Below, one piece after another: positions 21,526 to 55,604 of a DNA stretch of 64,000 nucleotides. The stretch's first letter is position 1, and each line of letters opens with the position of its first letter. The stretch spans positions 13,079-77,078 of the forward strand of contig JAHDGF010000015.1 of the NCBI GenBank assembly GCA_020627785.1, in the 5' to 3' direction. Under the pieces are notes generated by a model. That model searched no databases, had not been told where the DNA came from, and worked only from the letters and a program-made list of their open reading frames with translations. Source of the stretch: Saprospiraceae bacterium (lineage in GTDB: Bacteria; Bacteroidota; Bacteroidia; Chitinophagales; Saprospiraceae). The translations under genes and the position numbers were made by a program.

Positions 21526-22470
21526 TTATTCTTTTAGCACCTTTACATAGTGCACTTGAACATTGTTGATAGAAATTGAAATGAAATAATATCCCGGTTG
21601 TAGATATTTGCTCGGATTCCAAGTAGCTTCATATTTTTCTGCAGACATTATTCTATCTTCTAATTCGGCAATTTCTATGCCTTCAACGTTGTAAATTTTA
21701 ATTCCAACTTTGGATTTTTTAAAGACTCCGTATTTAATGGTAAGACTGTTCTGAAAAGGATTGGGTGAAGCACTGTAAATCATTCCGGTGTTTAGATGGA
21801 TTTCTTGAGTCCCGACACTTATCCCATTGCCATCTATAACAATATCAAATTGTCCTTCCATAACACCAGTTGAATTCATGTTTAAAGGAATGATTCTATT
21901 GGTTGCATCAAAAGTACCTGAGTCAATGGAAGCAGCTGCATCCCCAGGAATCTTGTCATCACCTTCAAAATAAAGCTGAGTCGTGAGCTGAGGAAAATTG
22001 GGTGGCTTAACTTTAAAGTGGATATGCGATGGCCTAAAATCAGTACCGTTTAAATACTTTCCAGGGACAATGGTTTTAAAGAGGTAAAATCCTTGATCAT
22101 TGGTTCTGGTAAATCCTCGGAAGTTAAATCCTGTATTGTCATATTGTCCTTGGTGATTGGCATGCCAAACATCTATGATTGTATTTGGGATATATTCTGA
22201 ACATTCAAGATTTAGAACTCTTCCACTGATTACAAGCGGATTACCTTTGGAAGACTCTGAGCCTTGGATATATTCTGAAATTTCTGGTGGATTATCTGAG
22301 TAGAATGGGCCTTCTCCAAAATAGTCTGTGGTTGTCATTTCACAGGCAGACTGATCAATTTTGGTTTTATTGGAGGAGTCATTGATACTTTTAGTCTTGG
22401 GTCTCACAAGGCTTACGGCTAATAATCCTAATCCAGTATTTTTCAAAAATGTTCTTCTCTTATTTGACAT
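21526..22470 (-). CDS. Intradiol dioxygenase-like protein with Tat signal and T9SS sorting domain
   Basis: 314-residue exported protein. The N-terminus has a twin-arginine motif (KRRTFLK) and hydrophobic stretch. A lone intradiol ring-cleavage dioxygenase domain (about 48-205) follows, with DVWHANHQGQYD (Tyr110) and RPSHIHF (His149, His151) as iron ligands, and Tyr139 as a likely fourth. The C-terminus (about 230-314, SASPNPFQNSLTIKYG to YVKVLKE) is a T9SS type A sorting domain. The family cleaves catechols between the hydroxyls; an extracellular role on aromatic or polyphenolic material is inferred. It starts 8 bases after the barrel-type anti-sigma gene, so it belongs to the sigma operon. 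Confidence 0.88.
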   Translation of the reverse strand: MSNKRRTFLKNTGLGLLAVSLVRPKTKSINDSSNKTKIDQSACEMTTTDYFGEGPFYSDNPPEISEYIQGSESSKGNPLVISGRVLNLECSEYIPNTIIDVWHANHQGQYDNTGFNFRGFTRTNDQGFYLFKTIVPGKYLNGTDFRPSHIHFKVKPPNFPQLTTQLYFEGDDKIPGDAAASIDSGTFDATNRIIPLNMNSTGVMEGQFDIVIDGNGISVGTQEIHLNTGMIYSASPNPFQNSLTIKYGVFKKSKVGIKIYNVEGIEIAELEDRIMSAEKYEATWNPSKYLQPGYYFISISINNVQVHYVKVLKE

Positions 22471-22478
22471 TTGTTTAT

Positions 22479-23774
22479 TTAAAAATTGTAGAATAGACCA
22501 GCTGAAATGTTGTGCACCGAATCCCAGATGATTGATTGTCGTTTAGTTTGTATTTGATATCCGTAATTTATTTCTAATCCCATAAATGGATGTATAGAGT
22601 ATTGTACACTACAGCCCATGGAGTATGAACTTAAGGATGGCTTACTTTCTTCAAGGATGAATTCTACATAATTTGTTTCATAAGAATTTATTGAAAGTAA
22701 ACTTAATTCACCTTGTTTAGAATTTGAAAACTGGACACCTCCTGTGGCAAAAATTGCTGCTTGTTTTATTTTGAAAATTTGAAACATGATGCCAGGTCTG
22801 AAGAAATTTTGTTGATATCTGGCACTGCCACTTTCTATATTCTCGTTAGCACCATATAGGTTGGGTCGAGGGAATCCATTGAAATTATTCCCAAATGATC
22901 TACGAATATTTTGTCTATTATATCCGAAGGAAATTCCGATCTTATTTGTTGGCCACCAAACTGTTTTAAGCGTGATTGAAGCTCTTGTAGAATCTGAGAA
23001 TCTAGGACTGAGAAAATCTTTGGTTAGGCTAGCATGGAAAGAAAATTTCTTTTTTCTACTGGTTTGCTTTACCGAAGTCATTTTCATTTTTGAAGATGGT
23101 ACGTTATTTTTCTTAAAGTCTACAATGGATTTTTGATTTGTTTGGATTGGAATTAGAGTTTGTAAAAGGGTAGTATTGGTTTCAATCTGAAGCGGAATAT
23201 TTTTTGGAATTTGATTTGCTCTTAACGAGTAATCTTTATATGTATTGGTAGTAATTATATTTTCTTTATTAGTATCGGCATATTTGGTCTTTTCTATTCC
23301 TATGATTTCTTTGGAATAATATTGACTTTCCTTGACTTTTTCTTTTGCCAGTGGTAAGGTCTCTTTTTTCTCGTCCGAAGGAATGGTTAACCCACTTATT
23401 TTCACGTTGTTATGATTGACTTTATGGTTTTGTGGTATTGGTTTATTGTCTTCCTTAGTTATGGAAGAGGTACTAGTCAAACCTTCATTCCGTTTGTGGG
23501 AATTTGATTCTTCTAATTTCAGTTTATTTACTTTCGAATCAATATGGTTGATTTGGATTTTGTTCTCTGTTTTTGAAAAAGTTGAAGAAAAAACAAGTAA
23601 GGTAGAGGCAATTAAGATGCTTAAAGATATTAGACCTGTCATCCAAATTTTATTATTGCTTTTAGCACTTTTGAGCCTATTATTTATATTAAGCCAATGC
23701 TTATCAATGTCTGATGACTTATCTACTCTGTTTAGCTCTGTCTGAAATAATTTATCCAACCGTTTGTCTTCCAT
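22479..23774 (-). CDS. Predicted dual-membrane anti-sigma protein (Dma-like)
   Basis: 431 residues from ATG 23774 (437 from ATG 23792). A short charged cytoplasmic head contains a D-K-H-W-x-x-I-x-x-R-L pattern seen in small anti-sigma heads. A single TM helix (about 43-63) follows, then a hydrophilic low-complexity linker (about 65-235) rich in Lys, Asn, Ser and Thr. The C-terminal domain of about 190 residues has alternating beta-strands and ends in Phe (GLFYNF), like an outer-membrane beta-barrel. The gene start overlaps the end of the ECF sigma gene, as is usual for sigma/anti-sigma pairs. The layout matches the Dma proteins of Bacteroides thetaiotaomicron, thought to link both membranes. 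Role inferred from architecture and position. Confidence 0.8.
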   Translation of the reverse strand: MEDKRLDKLFQTELNRVDKSSDIDKHWLNINNRLKSAKSNNKIWMTGLISLSILIASTLLVFSSTFSKTENKIQINHIDSKVNKLKLEESNSHKRNEGLTSTSSITKEDNKPIPQNHKVNHNNVKISGLTIPSDEKKETLPLAKEKVKESQYYSKEIIGIEKTKYADTNKENIITTNTYKDYSLRANQIPKNIPLQIETNTTLLQTLIPIQTNQKSIVDFKKNNVPSSKMKMTSVKQTSRKKKFSFHASLTKDFLSPRFSDSTRASITLKTVWWPTNKIGISFGYNRQNIRRSFGNNFNGFPRPNLYGANENIESGSARYQQNFFRPGIMFQIFKIKQAAIFATGGVQFSNSKQGELSLLSINSYETNYVEFILEESKPSLSSYSMGCSVQYSIHPFMGLEINYGYQIQTKRQSIIWDSVHNISAGLFYNF

Positions 23775-24312
23775 GATTTTCTTTTTCTTCAAGTTCCATA
23801 ATCATTTTCTTTAGTTTCTGTCTTGCCTTTGATAGATTCGATTTTGAAGTTCCTTTACTTATGTTGAGCTTTCTTGAGATTTCATCATGTGAAAAGCCTT
23901 CCATGACATGCAAGACGAAAACCATTTTATATTGCGGTGAAAGCCGGTCTAAGAATCCTAATAAGTATTCTTTGTCGAGTGCTTCTGCTCCTTGATTTCT
24001 AACAAGCTTTACTGGTTGTTTTTCGATCTGCGCGGATTTCTTTTCTAATTTTCTGAAATGGTCAATTCCTGTGTTAATCATTATTCGCCTCACCCATAAT
24101 AGAAAAGGAGTGTCATCATTATATTGCTCAATTTTTAATAGCATTTTATAGAATCCATCATTTGCAATTTCTTCTGCTTCTTCCTTACTTCTGGCGTATC
24201 TACGTGCAATGTTATATCCAAAATCATAAACATGATAAAAGAGTGCTTTTTGGCTTGCTGAGTCTTTTGTTTTGCAGGCCGCTATCAATGATTTTAATTG
24301 AGCCTCTGTCAT
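23752..24312 (-). CDS. ECF RNA polymerase sigma factor
   Basis: 186-residue sigma-70 family factor of the extracytoplasmic function type. Region 2 includes YARSKEEAEEIANDGFYKML and an RRIMINTGIDHFRK segment (core and -10 binding). Region 4 includes LSPQYKMVFVLHVMEGFSHDEIS, followed by a helix-turn-helix (LNISKGTSKSNLSKARQKL). It lacks regions 1 and 3, as ECF factors do. Its 3' end overlaps the Dma-like gene, which probably holds it inactive. Two lipoprotein genes lie just upstream on the same strand (36 bases away), and the dioxygenase-like gene follows downstream. Confidence 0.95.
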   Translation of the reverse strand: MTEAQLKSLIAACKTKDSASQKALFYHVYDFGYNIARRYARSKEEAEEIANDGFYKMLLKIEQYNDDTPFLLWVRRIMINTGIDHFRKLEKKSAQIEKQPVKLVRNQGAEALDKEYLLGFLDRLSPQYKMVFVLHVMEGFSHDEISRKLNISKGTSKSNLSKARQKLKKMIMELEEKENHGRQTVG

Positions 24313-24348
24313 TACTTCATAAGATAAACCTAATTAAGTTTATTTCAT

Positions 24349-25053
24349 TTAAATTCTAATTTTTGTTTGGAAGCTAGCATTTTTCAATTCATAAAATGTC
24401 CAATATCCACAACTCAATATTTTTAATTGGACATTAAAGTTTCCAGACATTGAAAATTCATTTTCATTATAATTTAGTTCATTGAATTGAAATTTTTCTT
24501 GTTCGAAATAAAAGCCATTACTTGAATATTGATCATTTGTCCATTCGTTATAAGAATCTGGTATTCTTATGAAAGCCAAAGCATTGACTTTTTCTCTGAA
24601 CTGATTGTTATCCCATTTGTGTTTTTCTAGGATTTGATGGAATGAATTCAGGTCTTTGTATTTCAAGAATCCATCTTCATTGGTTGTTATGTTTTCTTTT
24701 GCTTCTTTGTATAGAAAACCTAACTCAAATTTTCGATACATGAAATCCATATTATTTGACACATCATATTCGAAAGAAGTAAAGAGATAGATGGAATCAT
24801 TTTCCACATTTTCTAGTTCTATTCCAAAGTGATTAAATTCTTGGCTAGCTGCATTGACCTCAATTCCTTTTTCTGAATTAAAACTGGATGTAATCGTGGT
24901 CGTATCTATGGCTTCAAAACTATTTTGGATAGAAATAAAGTCTAAGCACATCCCATTTGTTTTATGATTTTGGCATGCGTCTAGCATAGCATCCTTATGG
25001 CAACTAGAAATGGGAATTAATAATACTAGGATTAATAAAATTGACTGGTTCAT
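24349..25053 (-). CDS. Lipoprotein of unknown function
   Basis: 234-residue predicted lipoprotein with lipobox ISSC (Cys18). The mature part has cysteines at CQNHKTNGMC near the start and one near the end (ILSCGYW), and otherwise looks like a beta-sandwich with many Asn, Glu and aromatic residues. I recognise no family. It lies between the haem-motif lipoprotein gene (10 bases upstream) and the ECF sigma gene (36 bases downstream), all on one strand. It is probably co-transcribed and may be a target or sensor component of the sigma operon. Confidence 0.85.
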   Translation of the reverse strand: MNQSILLILVLLIPISSCHKDAMLDACQNHKTNGMCLDFISIQNSFEAIDTTTITSSFNSEKGIEVNAASQEFNHFGIELENVENDSIYLFTSFEYDVSNNMDFMYRKFELGFLYKEAKENITTNEDGFLKYKDLNSFHQILEKHKWDNNQFREKVNALAFIRIPDSYNEWTNDQYSSNGFYFEQEKFQFNELNYNENEFSMSGNFNVQLKILSCGYWTFYELKNASFQTKIRI

Positions 25054-25063
25054 GATTTAAGCT

Positions 25064-25408
25064 TTAATTATTTAATGCCCCTTCTTCTATCCAGGTTGCA
25101 AATAGCCTTCTTTCATCCTCAGTAATTGTTTCATTTTCTACATTGCCTCCTCCGCTAGGCGGCATGGATCTTTCTACAATGAGTTTGTCCCAAAGCTTTC
25201 CATTATCTGCGACTTCTTTAATGTTGAGATAGTCTTCAAAATATGTTATGGTCGTATGGCAATATGTACCAGAGCAGAAAGTGCTTATTATAGGGATGAG
25301 ATCCTCTTGGTAGCTTACCGTAGCTTCATGGATATCCTTATTGCAACTGTAAGTGAGACCGATAATTGTGGTTAATAGGACTCCTTTTATGCTCATTTGT
25401 GTTTTCAT
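25064..25408 (-). CDS. Small cytochrome c-like lipoprotein with a CX4CH motif
   Basis: 114-residue lipoprotein (lipobox TYSC). The mature part resembles the Planctomycete-type cytochrome c domain: an N-terminal haem-like motif (FCSGTYCH), a middle segment with LWDKLI, a methionine-proline-proline ligand motif (RSMPPSGGG), and the ending WIEEGALNN. The haem motif has four residues between the cysteines (C-x4-C-H) instead of two, so covalent haem attachment is uncertain. It is the first gene of the minus-strand operon leading into the ECF sigma factor. Confidence 0.8.
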   Translation of the reverse strand: MKTQMSIKGVLLTTIIGLTYSCNKDIHEATVSYQEDLIPIISTFCSGTYCHTTITYFEDYLNIKEVADNGKLWDKLIVERSMPPSGGGNVENETITEDERRLFATWIEEGALNN

Positions 25409-25505
25409 CGCTCGCTTTGATGGTATACACGGAATTTTTGGGCAAAGGGTTGCCTCTAAGTGTCAATAACTTCAGATTAATGCTCAGAAAAGTTAGAAGT
25501 AGAAC

Positions 25506-48092: not shown

Positions 48093-49124
48093 TTATAAGT
48101 CGATCCATACTGATCCATTTAAATATCTTAAGCCTGGTAAACCGTCAGCTCTATTCGTTCCATTATCAAGGTATATTGGTGTAATAAACCAACCACTAGG
48201 TTCAATGTTATCCATTGTCAATAAACCTATTCCATCTTGTCCTGTTGCTCCAGTTGCACCTTGGTCACCAGTTTCTCCTGGAGGTCCAACATCACCTACG
48301 GGTCCAGCAGGCCCGTCTGGTCCTGCGGAAGGGCCGATTGGTCCTGTCGCTCCGATGGGTCCAGGGATACCTCCACCAATGCCAGGTTCTCCTTTAGGTC
48401 CTTTTGGACCATTTACTCCATCGGCTCCTCGATCACCTTCTTCTCCTGCTGGGCCTTGTGGACCTGCTAGTCCAGTAAAGATACTTGCAGGTGGGCCTTG
48501 AGGTCCTTGTTCTCCGATTGGACCTTGCGGGCCATCGGGTGTACCATCTGGTCCTTTTGGACCAGTAGCTCCTTTGTCTCCTTCAGGTCCATCGGGCCCC
48601 TGCGGCCCAGTCGGGCCAACGCCACCTACACCATCTGGACCCGGTGCTCCTGTTGCACCCGTTGCTCCGGCAGCACCTTGAGGTCCTACAAGTCCTGTAA
48701 CCCCTGGAGGGCCAGGAATTCCATCAGCAGCTTCTAAGGCTAAGTAAGCATAAGGGACAGATAAAAACTGAACCGTTCCCATATTTACATAATCAGTTCC
48801 ACCTGTTAGGTCCATTTGGATGTTGAGGAAGTGGTCATTTGAAACCCACTGGATTTCTAAGAAATTATCTTGGGTTTGGCCTTGGCCGATTTGTAAACTT
48901 AAGTGGCCTAAATCTGTGGTCATTACACTATGGGATTCTGAGTAAACGATATTTCCCATCGTTGTTTCTTCCAAAATATTTATTTGAACACCGACCATTT
49001 GATTTGCTACTATTTGGCCATTTGCGTCCATGGCCATTGATTGATAACTAAAGCTCTGAGGCACTTGCGCTATCATCATTCCTGCAAAGAGGAATGAGCT
49101 TATGATTGATAAAAATATTTTCAT
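48093..49124 (-). CDS. Collagen-like surface protein (copy 3 of 3)
   Basis: 343-residue exported protein: signal peptide (about 1-19, ending MIAQ); an N-terminal domain (about 20-133) with the [28 protein letters not shown] and [12 protein letters not shown] blocks shared by many Bacteroidota secreted proteins; a collagen-like G-X-Y region (about 135-300) rich in Pro, Asp and Ala, with short interruptions; and a 40-residue end with [11 protein letters not shown] and WIDL. No T9SS domain or membrane anchor is seen, so the export and surface attachment route is open. Last gene of the second sigma operon. Confidence 0.9.
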
Positions 49125-49142
49125 TTTAATTGTTTGTATTGA

Positions 49143-50171
49143 TTATAAATCGATCCATCCAAGGGTCTGGTGATAAAATCTCAGTCCTACTTTTCCATCA
49201 GCTCTGTTCACTCCAGAGTCTAAGTAAAAATTTAAGGTACTTGATGGTGTAGGAACTGTGCTTGATGGGGTAGCATTCCAAGCGAATGAGAAACCCGTAA
49301 CACCTGTTGGTCCAGTGGGTCCTTTAACGCCTGGTTCTCCAGTAGGTCCTTTAGGTCCTGGAGCACCTGCTGCTCCACCGGATGGTCCTACCGGGCCAGT
49401 AGGTCCAATAGGTCCAACTTCATTTGATGGAGGTCCCGGATCACCTTGTGGTCCTTGATCTCCTGGGAGCCCAGCTTGACCTGCAGGGCCAGTTGCTCCT
49501 TTTGGTCCGGGAAGGCCAGAATTTCCAACTCCTTCATTACCTGGAGGCCCTGGGTCACCTGGAGGTCCTTGTGGTCCTTCTTCACCACCAGAAGCTCCGG
49601 GTAGTCCTTGAGGTCCTGTTGGTCCAGTTGCACCTTTAGGTCCGGCTTCTCCTATAGGTCCTGCGATGCCACCTATTGGACCAATGGGTCCAGTTGCACC
49701 GGTAGCTCCAGTTGGACCGGTAGCACCTACATCACCTGGTAATCCAACTCTTCCTGGATTTAGGGTTACATCTGCTGTATTGGTCGCCATCGCATAGGGA
49801 ACACTGTAAAACGGGGTTGTGTTAGAAAAAGTGTAATTGGTTCCTCCGGTTGCGTCCATTTCAACCGTTAAGAATCTACTTCCTAACGCCCAGTCGATCG
49901 TTGTAATCGATCCACTTTCTACGTTTCCTTCCCCTACATTGGCACTAAAGTATCCGATAGAAGTTGTGGTCGCATTTTGAGTTTCTGAATAAAGCACATT
50001 TCCATTGGAGAGGGCATCTGAAATTGTAAACTTTAGTCCGACATCACCATTTTGTACGGCAGCTCCTGTGGCATCAACAGCAATTCCCTGATAATTAAAA
50101 TTAGGAGTTACTTGTGCGACAAGGTTTAGAGAACAAAAGGCGAAAACGATATTTAATAATATATTTTTCAT
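49143..50171 (-). CDS. Collagen-like surface protein (copy 2 of 3)
   Basis: 342-residue paralogue of its two neighbours. Signal peptide (about 1-19, ending LVAQ), N-terminal domain (about 20-138) with [30 protein letters not shown] and [15 protein letters not shown] region (about 140-300), and C-terminal [11 protein letters not shown]...WIDL tail. The charged triplets (GPK, GDP, GEP) and repeated [10 protein letters not shown] differ in order from the other copies, so the three are related but not recent identical duplications. Gaps of 18-21 bases to both neighbours suggest one transcript. Confidence 0.9.
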
Positions 50172-50192
50172 TTTAATTTTCTTGTCAATTAA

Positions 50193-51230
50193 TTAATAAA
50201 GATCTATCCAAGCTGTACCGCTATACCATCTCAATCCTATCTCTCCGTCTGCTCTATTAGCTCCTGAATCAACATAGATGTAGTATTGTACTGGATTGCT
50301 TGGAGGCGTATCCAAAAATTCTAAAAACTGGATACCGTCCGCTCCAGGTTCCCCCACGGGTCCTACCGCTCCGGTTGGTCCGGTTGGTCCTGCTGGTCCA
50401 GCAGGTCCATCTGCACCATCGGGTCCTGGAGGTCCTGGAGGTCCTTGCGGTCCTGGTGATCCTGGTGGTCCTTCTGTCCCTCCTGGATCTCCTTTATCAC
50501 CTGTCTCTCCTTTTGCTCCATTAAACCCTTGAGGGCCTGATGGTCCTGTAGGTCCTTGTGGACCATCGGGTCCTGCGCCTTCACCTTGTGGCCCATCCGG
50601 TCCTTTTGGTCCTGGAGGTCCTACATTACCTGTTTGAGTTGCATCATCCCCTGGAGGACCTTGATCTCCAACTGCACCAGTTGGCCCTACGTTCCCTGTT
50701 GGTCCTTGAGGACCTGGAGTTGAGTTAGGCCCCGCTTGACCTGGAGGTCCTGCTGGCCCTGTTGCTCCGGTAGGTCCTGCAGGTCCTATTGGACCTGTGG
50801 CACCTTTAGGACCCCTTGGGCCGTAAAGAGCTGTCGCAGCATGTTGTGCATATGGAACTGAAATTAATTCTGTTGTTCCTGCGCTGAAGTAATCCATTCC
50901 TGCATTTGGGTCAATGGATACTTCTAGGTAATAAGGATTGTTGGTCCAGTCGACATCAGCTAAGGTTCCGAAGATTTCCTCACCTTCGCCGATGATCAGT
51001 TCAAAGGCAGCTGCGTCAGAAGTTGTTGTTACGTGTCTTTCGATGTATGTGTTTGATCCATTAGTTGATCCTTGAAGAACAGAAAATAGAATGGCAATTT
51101 CTTGACTTATGATCGGGTCTCCGTTTCCATCAAAGGCAACCCCTTGATATCTGATTCCGTCTTGAGCAAATACGCTCATGGCAAAACCTAAGAACAATAA
51201 TAGTGTCGTGTATTTTTTCATGTTCTTCAT
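50193..51230 (-). CDS. Collagen-like surface protein (copy 1 of 3)
   Basis: 345-residue paralogue. Signal peptide (about 1-22, ending SVFAQ), N-terminal domain (about 23-135; [44 protein letters not shown]), a G-X-Y region (about 137-303) and the tail [11 protein letters not shown]...WIDLY. The initiation codon directly follows the stop of the upstream sorting-domain gene, so translation is probably coupled. Collagen-like triple helices need trimerisation; the conserved tail is the candidate trimerisation or attachment unit (inference). Confidence 0.9.
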
Positions 51231-51713
51231 TTAAAGTTTAAAAATCTTGAGGGTTTTTGATTTCTTGTCCCCGTCTCTTACGCTAAGGTAGTATGTGCCG
51301 GGATTCCAATTCGTTACTGAAAGATTATTTATCTTTTCAGTTAGAATGTCTCTCTGTATGATTCTTCCACTTTCGTCAAATATTTCCATTGATAATGTGG
51401 AAGAAATTTCTGGTATCTCAATAGTAATAGATTCAATCGTTGGGTTGGGGTAGGTGTGAATGACTTCTTCAATTAAGTCTGTAGTTGCTGTACTTCCTTG
51501 CTCTAGTATAGTAATGTTGAGGAAGCCTTGAGAAATCATAATTTCTCCATCCTGTATTTCTGTGTTTAATGGTTCGCCTACAGATATGTACAAGGCACCT
51601 TCATCATTCATGAGTGCAGCACCTGTCGAAGAAATTAGATAAGAACTAATTTCTTGTGCAGAAATCTGTGAAGAAAGACATAATCCTAGAAATAGGTAAA
51701 GGACTTTTTTCAT
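51231..51713 (-). CDS. Small T9SS-sorted secreted protein
   Basis: 160-residue exported protein: signal peptide (about 1-19, ending ISAQ), a short domain of about 60 residues (ISSYLISSTGAALMNDEG, SVGEPLNTEIQDGE) and a T9SS type A sorting domain (about 85-160, YPNPTIESITIEIPE to KTLKIFKL). The first part resembles short leader domains that precede sorting domains in many Bacteroidota proteins. It lies between the Dma-like gene and the collagen-like genes and may help display or tether them (inference). Confidence 0.87.
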   Translation of the reverse strand: MKKVLYLFLGLCLSSQISAQEISSYLISSTGAALMNDEGALYISVGEPLNTEIQDGEIMISQGFLNITILEQGSTATTDLIEEVIHTYPNPTIESITIEIPEISSTLSMEIFDESGRIIQRDILTEKINNLSVTNWNPGTYYLSVRDGDKKSKTLKIFKL

Positions 51714-51815
51714 TATAGATTGTTTAGGTTAAGTAATATTTGTTTATGTATCGAGCTCTACTTACTAATATGATAGCAAGAACTTTTGTGACAAAAAACT
51801 TTAGAATTTTTTAAA

Positions 51816-53270
51816 TTAAAACTGATGTTTAATCCCTAAAGTGAACTCTTTAAAATTGTAAGTATTGGTCGAAAATGTTTCTTGTGCTCTCGTCTGATTT
51901 AATCCAAACGCCGCCTGCAATTTCCATGACTTGAATACTGGGATTTCAGCAAAGAAACCTCCAGACCATTGAGTCATAAATTGAGTTTGTAAGCTAGCTA
52001 AATCAATGGGGTATAAGCGTTCATCAAGGCTTGCACCTTCTGTTCTATTCCATACATTGATTGATGCACGACCATATGCTCCGTAAGTTATGGATTTGAA
52101 ATTATGATGTAGGCTTAATTGGATTGGGACGTTAACTAATTCATGTTTGTTGAAGATTTCCATGTCTCTTTCAACGATCCGTACTTTGTCTCCTTCAGTT
52201 AAGGTTTCAACCGCAGGAACTGGTCCAATGATGTTGTCATTTTCATCGATGATGTAAGAACCTTCCCAGTTAAATTGTTCATTGATTTTTTGATATTCAA
52301 CGCCGGTACTAATCGTCAGCCAATTGGTTAATTCTACATTCATTAGTAAGGTAGTGCCAAATCTTTCAAGAGGCATTTCAGCGGCGTTTCTGGCTTCTAT
52401 GTAACTTGGGTTAACTCCTTGATTACTAGTTGTTTGCTTTTGATAAAATGCAACAGATTGTAATGCAGAAATACTAAATAAAGGTCTGTACTTCTTTTGG
52501 TCTTCAAGACCAATCCAAGGAGATCTTTCAAAGTCAGAATCAATGCTTGAGTCTGTAACTTTGACTTGACTCTGTTCCACTTTAAATAGTTTTAAATTTT
52601 GTCTAAGGGGTGAAAGAGCAATCATACTTTCTCTTACTTTTCCAATAGATGTTTCTAGCTCCGTCAGGTCAGGTTTAATCTCTGAAAGAGTAGATGGTAA
52701 ATTAGAATCAATACGAGATGTATTTGATTTGTTTCCTACATCAGTATTGTTAGATCTGTTAGTAGTTGCTCTTTTAGTATTATCCTTTCGAGGATCATTG
52801 TTGGTCTGAGCAATGCTCTGTGCGTTGGAGGTAGTCTGGATTTCCTTGTTCAATTTTTGAACAGGAATATTGTTAAAAGATTGGCTAGTTTTTTCTGTGT
52901 TATTATTTAGTTTGCTTGTAGGTAAATCTGAATTTTTCTTTGTTTTATTAATGGCAGATGATGAACTAGTTTTAGCAAGATTTTCATTTGTTTCTGGCTG
53001 TGGTTCATTGTTTGTAGCAATGGTTGTCGTTGGGGTAATTTCTAATAAGTTCTCAGGCTTGTTTTCTGTAACTTTATCATTACCAGGGGAGTATTGTATG
53101 CCTAAAAAGATTACTAAAGAAAGTAGTAATATTCCTAAACCCGTAATCCAAAAGAACCCTTTTCTCTTCTTTTGCTTTGCCTCAATTCCTGACCAGATTT
53201 CCAAAGGGTCGATGTCGTATTCATGCGATTGAACGTGATCTTGAATTATTTTTTTAGTCTTGTCCTTCAT
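51816..53270 (-). CDS. Predicted dual-membrane anti-sigma protein (Dma-like)
   Basis: 484 residues. A cytoplasmic head of about 37 residues (DPLEIWSGIEAKQKK) is followed by one TM helix (about 38-59), a long linker (about 60-215) dominated by Asn, Thr, Ser and Lys, and a C-terminal region (about 255-484) of alternating strands ending LGIKHQF, like an outer-membrane beta-barrel. Its start overlaps the ECF sigma gene stop by 4 bases (ATGA), the classic sigma/anti-sigma coupling. The linker is long enough to cross the periplasm. The same layout appears at 22479-23774, but the sequences are diverged. Confidence 0.82.
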   Translation of the reverse strand: MKDKTKKIIQDHVQSHEYDIDPLEIWSGIEAKQKKRKGFFWITGLGILLLSLVIFLGIQYSPGNDKVTENKPENLLEITPTTTIATNNEPQPETNENLAKTSSSSAINKTKKNSDLPTSKLNNNTEKTSQSFNNIPVQKLNKEIQTTSNAQSIAQTNNDPRKDNTKRATTNRSNNTDVGNKSNTSRIDSNLPSTLSEIKPDLTELETSIGKVRESMIALSPLRQNLKLFKVEQSQVKVTDSSIDSDFERSPWIGLEDQKKYRPLFSISALQSVAFYQKQTTSNQGVNPSYIEARNAAEMPLERFGTTLLMNVELTNWLTISTGVEYQKINEQFNWEGSYIIDENDNIIGPVPAVETLTEGDKVRIVERDMEIFNKHELVNVPIQLSLHHNFKSITYGAYGRASINVWNRTEGASLDERLYPIDLASLQTQFMTQWSGGFFAEIPVFKSWKLQAAFGLNQTRAQETFSTNTYNFKEFTLGIKHQF

Positions 53271-53821
53271 ATGATTACCAATTTTTTAGCACTTTCAATA
53301 TTGGCTTGTAATATCTTGCGAGATCTGTGTAAGTGTGTTCTTGAATTAATTTCTGTCATGTTCAGCATTTCTGCTATTTCTTTGTGTGAGTATCCTTCAA
53401 TTGCATAAAGAGAGAATACTTTTCTATAGTCATCTGGTAGTTTGAAAATCAGTTGCATGATTTCATCATGAGACATTTTATCTAATGCTTCTTCAGGTAC
53501 TGCTTTATCAATTTTTAAATCTTCCAGCTTCATTTCGTTTCTTCTGTACTTCTTTTGGTTTTTGTTCAAGCAGAGGTTTATAATAATCCTCTTTATCCAT
53601 CCATACATGGCACCTTCTTCCGAACCTTCAAAAACTTGAATTTTTTTGAAGACGAGAAGAAAGGCGTCTTGGAGTACATCCTTGGCATCTTCTTCAGAAC
53701 TGCTGTAAATTCGAGCCACCGTCATCAAACGTTTACTCAGCCTCATCACCAGTTCACGAAAAGCCAGTTGGTCCCCTTGCTTTAATCGCGTTAAGAGTGT
53801 TTCAAAATTCATACTAATCAC
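53267..53821 (-). CDS. ECF RNA polymerase sigma factor
   Basis: 184-residue ECF sigma factor. Region 2 shows YSSSEEDAKDVLQDAFLLVFKKI and GWIKRIIINLCLNK; region 4 shows LPDDYRKVFSLYAIEGYSHKEIAEML, followed by a helix-turn-helix (NMTEINSRTHLHRSRKIL). Start at 53821, with a Met at residue 4 as an alternative. It lies between a lipoprotein gene (34 bases upstream) and the Dma-like gene (overlapping), and probably drives its own operon including the collagen-like genes (inference). Confidence 0.95.
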   Translation of the reverse strand: MISMNFETLLTRLKQGDQLAFRELVMRLSKRLMTVARIYSSSEEDAKDVLQDAFLLVFKKIQVFEGSEEGAMYGWIKRIIINLCLNKNQKKYRRNEMKLEDLKIDKAVPEEALDKMSHDEIMQLIFKLPDDYRKVFSLYAIEGYSHKEIAEMLNMTEINSRTHLHRSRKILQANIESAKKLVII

Positions 53822-53855
53822 TGGGCTTAACTTTTAGGTTAAGCAAAAAAAAATA

Positions 53856-55604
53856 TTAATCATAATACACAACATCCATTATAAGACTATCCACATTTCC
53901 AGGGTAGAGTGTTTGATCAGTAACATCTATGGTTCCTTGAAAATTGGTAAATCGATGGCTGTTGATATTTGCATGCTTTATCGTAGATAAATCACAGGTT
54001 CCTTGCGCAGAAAATCCTTGCGTAGGAAAGGTGATTGAAAAATCTGCTTTTGTATTCCCTTCAGTAAAGACATAAACACCGCAAGAGTAAAGTGCTCCTG
54101 TTATGATGTCTTCCATTTTAGTAGAATATATGTATTTCACAGAAGGACCTTCTATGGTACTAATATCCCAGCTGTGAACAATTGTATTATTTAATTCCTG
54201 TTCCCAATTAAAGCCATTGTAGTTTATGTCGTAACCAGCTTGAATTGGAACGCATTGTTCCAGATTACCAATTTGTATGTCACCAGAAATCTGCAGATTC
54301 AATGTCTCACTTGCAAATTGGGTTTGCTCATTAATCATAGTTATTCCTATTGCTGCCTCTTCGCAACTAGCAAAGCTGTAATTGCTTACCCCATTTTGAT
54401 CTGTTTTGGCCATTAAGAATTCTTCTCCAAGCTCTAATAGCATCTGACTGAAAGGTGCCTCGCTGCCATCACATTGCGTAGTTACTCCTGTGATCAGAAT
54501 ATTTGCTTCTTGGTTACTTACAGGTATAGGATCTAATATCGCAGCTTCTGTCTGTGGTTCTATGGTGTGATGTTGATTGGATACAGCACATTCATGTTTA
54601 ATATCAATTTGCTGTTCTTCAAAGGCAGGAATCATGCTTGCAAAAGATCCCGAATTCGTAGGTCTTAACTGTTGGCTGAAAAATGCGGATTGATCTTTTA
54701 TCACCATCCGAGAATTCGCAAAGTTAGATCCCATGGATACTAATTGTCCTTCAATTCTTAGTGCAGGGGAAGAATAACCGATCATCAAATTTCCAACATG
54801 ATTGGTTGTGAAGCTTAAGGTATTCGATTCTACAGTCACTGGTTCTTGCTCAAACCACTGAGTAAGCTCTTTATTCCAGGTCCAGTATGAAAGATCTTGA
54901 TTTACGGAACCAGGATCAGGAAACTCAACTTCAATTAATTTGTCTGCATTTAAATTGACATCTATACCAGTTGTGGATTCTATCTCTATGAACACTAAGC
55001 CTAAACTGTGGATGCATACTCGTTCATTATTTAGGTTGTAACCCGTTAGATCTCCTGACACGGTAGAACCTAGATCATTTTCGTTGGGAGGGATAAAATC
55101 TACCTGTGCTATTACTGGTTCTTGAATGGTTTGACCTTCTTGATCAAGATATGGGCCTGAAGGAATTCTTATTTTGGCACCCAGTAATTGAATGGTTACG
55201 CCTAATTCAGGTGTAAAAGTATTTATTTGTCTTTTTTCTGTAAGTCTGTGTTCTATTTGATTTAACTCATTTGCGAAAGCGTAAAACCTCTTGAAACCTG
55301 TAAAATAATCAGGATGATTAATCTGGATAAGTGTCCCGTTCTCGTTTAGATCTTTATTTTCAAAAATAAACTGGCCATTGATGTCAGTCGTCGTCGTTTC
55401 ATCGCCTATTATAATATCTGCAGAACTTACGGGATCCCCATCATTATTGACGATAAGTCCACTTAAGCTTCCAATTAATTCTACTTCAGGTGGAGGATCA
55501 AAAGTCGGCTCTGTGATAACAATATTATCCATGTTCTCTCTTTGGCAAGCTGTTGAGAGCAAAATAAGTAGCGTTATTATTAAAAATATCCCGTTTTTCA
55601 TCAT
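53856..55604 (-). CDS. Lipoprotein with carboxypeptidase-regulatory-like domain
   Basis: 582-residue predicted lipoprotein: lipobox LSTAC (Cys20), a carboxypeptidase regulatory-like beta-sandwich (about 45-125, GLIVNNDGDPVSSADIIIGD and TTTDINGQFIFEN), then several further beta-rich modules with no family I recognise. Such Ig-like heads are typical of envelope proteins in this phylum. It lies 34 bases upstream of the second ECF sigma gene on the same strand and is the likely first gene of that operon. An ATTTGCGNAAGC copy lies inside (55269). Confidence 0.85.
   Translation of the reverse strand: MMKNGIFLIITLLILLSTACQRENMDNIVITEPTFDPPPEVELIGSLSGLIVNNDGDPVSSADIIIGDETTTTDINGQFIFENKDLNENGTLIQINHPDYFTGFKRFYAFANELNQIEHRLTEKRQINTFTPELGVTIQLLGAKIRIPSGPYLDQEGQTIQEPVIAQVDFIPPNENDLGSTVSGDLTGYNLNNERVCIHSLGLVFIEIESTTGIDVNLNADKLIEVEFPDPGSVNQDLSYWTWNKELTQWFEQEPVTVESNTLSFTTNHVGNLMIGYSSPALRIEGQLVSMGSNFANSRMVIKDQSAFFSQQLRPTNSGSFASMIPAFEEQQIDIKHECAVSNQHHTIEPQTEAAILDPIPVSNQEANILITGVTTQCDGSEAPFSQMLLELGEEFLMAKTDQNGVSNYSFASCEEAAIGITMINEQTQFASETLNLQISGDIQIGNLEQCVPIQAGYDINYNGFNWEQELNNTIVHSWDISTIEGPSVKYIYSTKMEDIITGALYSCGVYVFTEGNTKADFSITFPTQGFSAQGTCDLSTIKHANINSHRFTNFQGTIDVTDQTLYPGNVDSLIMDVVYYD

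Follow-up and report, generated by a model that had tools for sequence, protein, structure and literature searches.

A probable single-operon Dma-type sigma switch with a predicted surface dioxygenase as its output in a Saprospiraceae bacterium

What does an ECF sigma factor control when its gene follows two lipoprotein genes, precedes a dioxygenase gene and overlaps a gene whose product seems to join an anti-sigma head to an outer membrane (OM) barrel? In the SusC/FecR-type ECF systems of Bacteroidota, an ECF sigma factor works with a membrane anti-sigma factor and takes its input from the OM. In those systems a TonB-dependent receptor, a protein of its own, supplies the barrel, whereas here barrel and anti-sigma head are predicted to lie in one protein. 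The locus belongs to a 64,000-nucleotide stretch, here called the window, of a Saprospiraceae bacterium genome (4.69 Mb, 81 contigs). Five closely spaced genes run on the minus strand from 25408 to 21526. They encode a small lipoprotein of 114 aa (25064-25408), a lipoprotein of 234 aa, LIP234 (24349-25053), a Das-like ECF sigma factor (23752-24312), a Dma-type anti-sigma factor of 431-437 aa (22479-23774 from ATG, or to 23792 with TTG) and an intradiol ring-cleavage dioxygenase of 314 aa (21526-22470). The two lipoprotein genes are 10 nt apart, the second lies 36 nt from the ECF gene, and 8 nt separate the Dma and dioxygenase genes; the Dma gene probably starts at ATG and would then overlap the ECF gene by 23 nt. 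The sigma factor matched Sigma70_r4_2 (1e-16) and Sigma70_r2 (2e-11) in Pfam and scored 73 bits against the NCBIfam model Sig70_bacteroi1, under its cut-off of 126. A sequence-only reading had described this gene plan, from lipoproteins to a dioxygenase with a type IX secretion (T9SS) tail, and every part of it was found. The arrangement is not due to chance, since other genera have the operon in whole or in part.

By definition (PMC13088901), a Dma protein has a sigma-binding domain at its N-terminus and one transmembrane (TM) helix, ends in a barrel reached through a long disordered tether, and is encoded next to an ECF21 sigma gene. By its architecture and predicted structure, the window protein is of the Dma type. 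Numbered from ATG, it consists of a head (residues ~1-42), a TM segment (~43-61), a disordered tether (~65-240) and a 10-strand OM barrel (241-431). Residues 43-61 (49-67 from TTG) form its single hydrophobic segment. The head is short and helical, with an invariant tryptophan in the six-sequence alignment that also underlies the AlphaFold model. In that model the tether, ~175 residues long, is almost structureless (pLDDT ~22-33). The barrel, a guess in the sequence-only reading, is backed by the model, in which residues 241-431 resemble OmpW (Z 16.1, 2.7 Å across 163 residues) and OmpA (Z 15.3; Foldseek E 1.9e-8). The C-terminal residue is phenylalanine. Barrel blocks mostly reach pLDDT 58-91, and the tether and the head (~55, low confidence) pull the mean down to 51.8. 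This architecture suggests that the protein senses across the envelope. A search of the genomes of 150 relatives with the Dma sequence matched just one other genome, and identity among relatives is 18-33%. Because Dma diverges too fast for sequence search, the ECF sigma factor and the dioxygenase were used to trace the locus.

The dioxygenase matched Dioxygenase_C (5e-26) and Por_Secre_tail (5e-7). Its T9SS type A sorting domain scored above the cut-off with both PF18962 (30.3 bits, cut-off 27) and TIGR04183 (23.9, cut-off 23). Two tyrosines and two histidines are the iron ligands of intradiol dioxygenases; the corresponding Y110, Y129, H149 and H151 are invariant across 13 aligned dioxygenases (PF00775). 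The leader carries a twin arginine (KRRTFLK), kept in 12/13 of the same sequences, the exception being a truncated copy in L141. Together, leader and tail suggest export by Tat and then by T9SS. At the surface the enzyme should open catechol-type rings, a predicted activity. The closest solved structures to the catalytic domain are PDB 4ilt/4ilv (E 6e-22), a secreted Streptomyces enzyme with a carbohydrate-binding module. That enzyme differs from the window enzyme in having no T9SS tail, and it is not known to be controlled by an ECF switch. No paper that brings together an intradiol dioxygenase and type IX secretion was found in the open literature.

The small lipoprotein carries the motifs CSGTYCH and MPP and is a possible monohaem c-type cytochrome. 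The cytochrome-like motif ascribed to it is present, but as CX4CH rather than CXXCH, and 25064-25408 contains neither a CXXCH motif nor a Pfam cytochrome match. The protein is kept beside the operon in L116 (44%) and L141 (41%); the spacing is CX4CH in the window and L116 and CX3CH in L141, with MP conserved. It is weakly similar to CXXCH/CX4CH lipoproteins of L149, where one protein matches PSCyt1. A haem role is possible, and the protein may act like a c-type cytochrome, although it is not classed as one. LIP234 has homologs at the same operon position in L116, L118, L136, L138/L171 and L141; it matched no known fold, and its AlphaFold model was uninformative (pLDDT 34). At two other loci (L131 and L137), small lipoprotein genes are tandemly duplicated upstream of the ECF gene. 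Redox-type cargo of another kind, a protein with two CXXCH motifs and two lipoproteins with haem motifs, follows a related ECF/Dma pair at L149:2091-4294.

The operon or its core was retained in 11 genomes of 9 genera, and the core is present in Lewinella cohaerens DSM 23179 (L159). In a tree of ECF sigma factors, the window protein falls in a clade of 8 members (SH-aLRT 99). A dioxygenase gene lies beside 8/8 of them, after the Dma gene, a count that includes one locus cut off by a contig end (L138/L171) and one internally inverted (L141). A related ECF/Dma pair in L131/L230 adjoins a dioxygenase of a different branch, and pairs in L134 and L155 adjoin dioxygenases of a third, distant subfamily. 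Since these two further lineages of dioxygenase accompany related ECF/Dma pairs in another three genomes, the linkage has changed at least three times. That minimum follows from the starred branches of the dioxygenase tree, which give no direction of change; the trees are quick ones of moderate support. At sister ECF loci, either no gene lies close behind the Dma gene or those that do are unrelated. The outputs may thus fairly be called exchangeable, since the dioxygenase is kept within its own ECF clade and is absent or replaced in sister clades and paralogs. When cargo was compared as the sequence-only reading had proposed, the refuting outcome it named, unrelated cargo at homologous loci, did not arise, and neither did its other one, a lack of barrels, given the predicted barrel. 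The L141 locus (L141:4222-6931, G205) contains an internal inversion that breaks within both the ECF gene and the dioxygenase gene. A search there for inverted repeats of at least 9 bp found none, and the inversion may be real or a misassembly. The idea that this operon had been kept together despite rearrangement was dropped, as it shows a single internal inversion that may be an assembly error.

Comparison of the regions upstream of the first gene in five operons yielded the footprint GGCAACCC-N15-CGTGT. An AAC-containing -35 element with a CGT -10 element is the typical shape of an ECF promoter, and the footprint is likely a sigma-specific promoter. In the window the putative promoter lies on the minus strand at 25427-25454, and 18 nt separate it from the start codon of the leading gene. 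The 4.69 Mb genome has no other perfect match, with ~0.02 expected, under a strict pattern that would miss targets with weaker sites. One site with a single mismatch, at ~51135, falls within a gene. Among 246 family genomes, 28 perfect matches were found vs 14 of a reversed control pattern; 18/28 are at loci of the window ECF clade, in 15 genomes, and several others are inside reading frames. Outside the family, an order-wide search gave scattered matches only. The promoter stands before the leading lipoprotein gene at lipoprotein-led loci and ends 9-44 nt before the ECF start codon at ECF-first loci. This pattern supports autoregulation and a very small regulon. At five loci (L240, L241, L242, L250 and L264) the putative promoter ends just 9-13 nt before the ECF start codon, and their transcripts would therefore be near-leaderless. 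In the duplicated lipoprotein arrays of L131 and L137, two or three promoter copies are present.

Gene content, the barrel model, the conserved promoter-like element and conserved linkage all support one autoregulated, single-operon Dma sigma switch with the surface dioxygenase as its output, and we consider this the probable explanation. The five genes would form one transcription unit. The Dma head would hold the sigma factor at the inner membrane, and the tether would cross the periplasm to the OM barrel, so that one protein spans both membranes. A change at the OM would release the sigma factor, which would then use GGCAACCC-N15-CGTGT. Since a strict match to this promoter occurs only before the window operon, the free sigma factor would make more of itself, of its Dma inhibitor, of the two lipoproteins and of the dioxygenase. 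The result would be a positive loop with built-in repression and one local target. The dioxygenase would leave the cytoplasm folded, via Tat, pass through T9SS to the surface and cleave catechol-type rings there. In Bacteroides, deletion of dma2 strongly raises expression of das2 and neighbouring operon genes (PMC13088901), the behaviour predicted for the window switch.

How far does this switch differ from those of Bacteroides? Both have the order head, TM segment, disordered tether and barrel, an adjacent ECF gene and evidence that the operon is its own target. They differ in output, here a dioxygenase with predicted Tat/T9SS export plus two lipoproteins, and in scale, with ~20 pairs in this genome vs 3 in Bacteroides. 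The window locus also has a single strict promoter site and showed no link to vesicles or to a polysaccharide locus. The sequence-only reading had suggested a family of trans-envelope switches. The family stands, with sensing suggested by architecture, but the switch class is not new because Dma proteins have already been described, if only recently, in Bacteroides, where their signals and direct targets are unresolved (PMC13088901). Judged against the open literature, what is new is the output, the promoter, the seemingly single target and how far the family has expanded.

The plan was also said to recur elsewhere in the window, and a second locus at 48093-55604 shares its core. On the minus strand it encodes a large lipoprotein (53856-55604) whose paralogs precede other Dma pairs, an ECF sigma factor (53267-53821), an overlapping protein assigned to the Dma type by architecture (51816-53270; one TM segment, residues 40-58; putative barrel) and a small protein with a T9SS tail (51231-51713). 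Farther downstream, 48093-51230 encodes three proteins in a row, all with long collagen-like Gly-Xaa-Yaa repeats and with short C-terminal ends that resemble one another. A genome-wide search for further pairs, a check proposed with the original claim, was productive. A scan found 56 sigma-70-type matches in the genome, and the neighbours of each were read. Behind about 20 of the ECF genes lies a gene, mostly overlapping by 4-41 nt, for a protein of 370-705 aa with one TM segment near residue 40-70. Most Dma-paired ECF sigma factors share one tree branch (SH-aLRT 98). Two loci flagged as Dma by script (C46_110953 and C70_55408) resemble other anti-sigma types and were set aside. Mutually homologous large lipoproteins are encoded upstream of at least seven Dma loci. 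A search for a promoter shared by the other Dma paralogs found no dyad clearly above shuffles. By eye, GCA(A/G)CG-like elements recur before the C75, C51, C28, C66 and C17 Dma operons, with no excess over chance found.

A gene for a T9SS-tailed protein lies directly downstream at 6/~20 Dma loci vs 1/24 other ECF loci (Fisher p ~0.03, with 21 Dma-type loci in the test, one of them doubtful). This association fits a switch that senses envelope or secretion stress, with the dioxygenase and the haem-like lipoprotein protecting against catechols or oxidants rather than serving catabolism. Such a reading departs from the preferred one only in what is sensed and why. Dma1 and Dma2 govern OM vesicle production in Bacteroides (PMC13088901), which also speaks for it, whereas a promoter confined to a single operon fits a narrow response better than a general one to stress. 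We regard stress sensing as possible, if on balance unlikely.

Could the dioxygenase be a passenger that landed downstream of a real, autoregulated ECF/Dma switch in one lineage, with no functional tie to it? Dioxygenases 50-68% identical to the window enzyme are common in the family and mostly free-standing (80 loci from named records), and none of the free-standing genes checked has the promoter in front. Because most family dioxygenases stand alone with neither ECF gene nor promoter, the enzyme does not depend on the switch. Many sister-clade ECF genes likewise have the same promoter and a Dma gene with no dioxygenase. Against this, all 8 loci of the ECF clade kept the linkage although Dma itself diverges fast, and related ECF/Dma pairs adjoin dioxygenases from two other lineages; a passenger is quite improbable. 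That the C-terminal domain is instead a periplasmic beta protein, making the anti-sigma factor an ordinary inner-membrane one, fits a Pfam OM barrel match far under its cut-off and is very hard to credit given the ten-strand model, OmpW/OmpA Z scores of 15-16 and the terminal phenylalanine.

The preferred single-operon switch can be extended, speculatively and with considerable doubt, to the proposal that Saprospiraceae Dma proteins are insulated one-operon switches with private promoters and their own surface outputs. Here the barrel would sense the dioxygenase substrate or surface redox state and the enzyme would remove the inducer, so that a single protein spanning both membranes would run a sense-and-destroy loop outside the cell. 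With a promoter that is conserved, probably specific to this sigma factor and strictly matched only once in the genome, the circuit would be small and self-contained, and its signal, sigma release and output could all be measured; among named strains, L. cohaerens DSM 23179 is a candidate for such laboratory work. The locus further suggests that folded enzymes carrying iron reach the surface through Tat and then T9SS, and that Dma switches have expanded greatly beyond the Bacteroides of the gut.

Three other loci in the genome were also noted. L082 (C53:176520-177683), the partner of ECF C53_176062, has ~7 tandem head-like repeats of ~33 residues each before its single TM segment, with a consensus like FADxKDELPxHSPSADIWDKISEDLDV, and only ~100 residues after it; this anti-sigma-like protein is possibly a multivalent sigma trap. 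L061 (C13:21768-23531), the partner of ECF C13_21290, is Dma-like, with ~4 tandem head motifs before the TM segment, then a long tether and a barrel-like C-terminus. The sole other intradiol dioxygenase match in the genome (L041:6001-6597) has a Tat-like leader and no T9SS tail, and adjoins another Dma locus (C45_57691) in convergent orientation.
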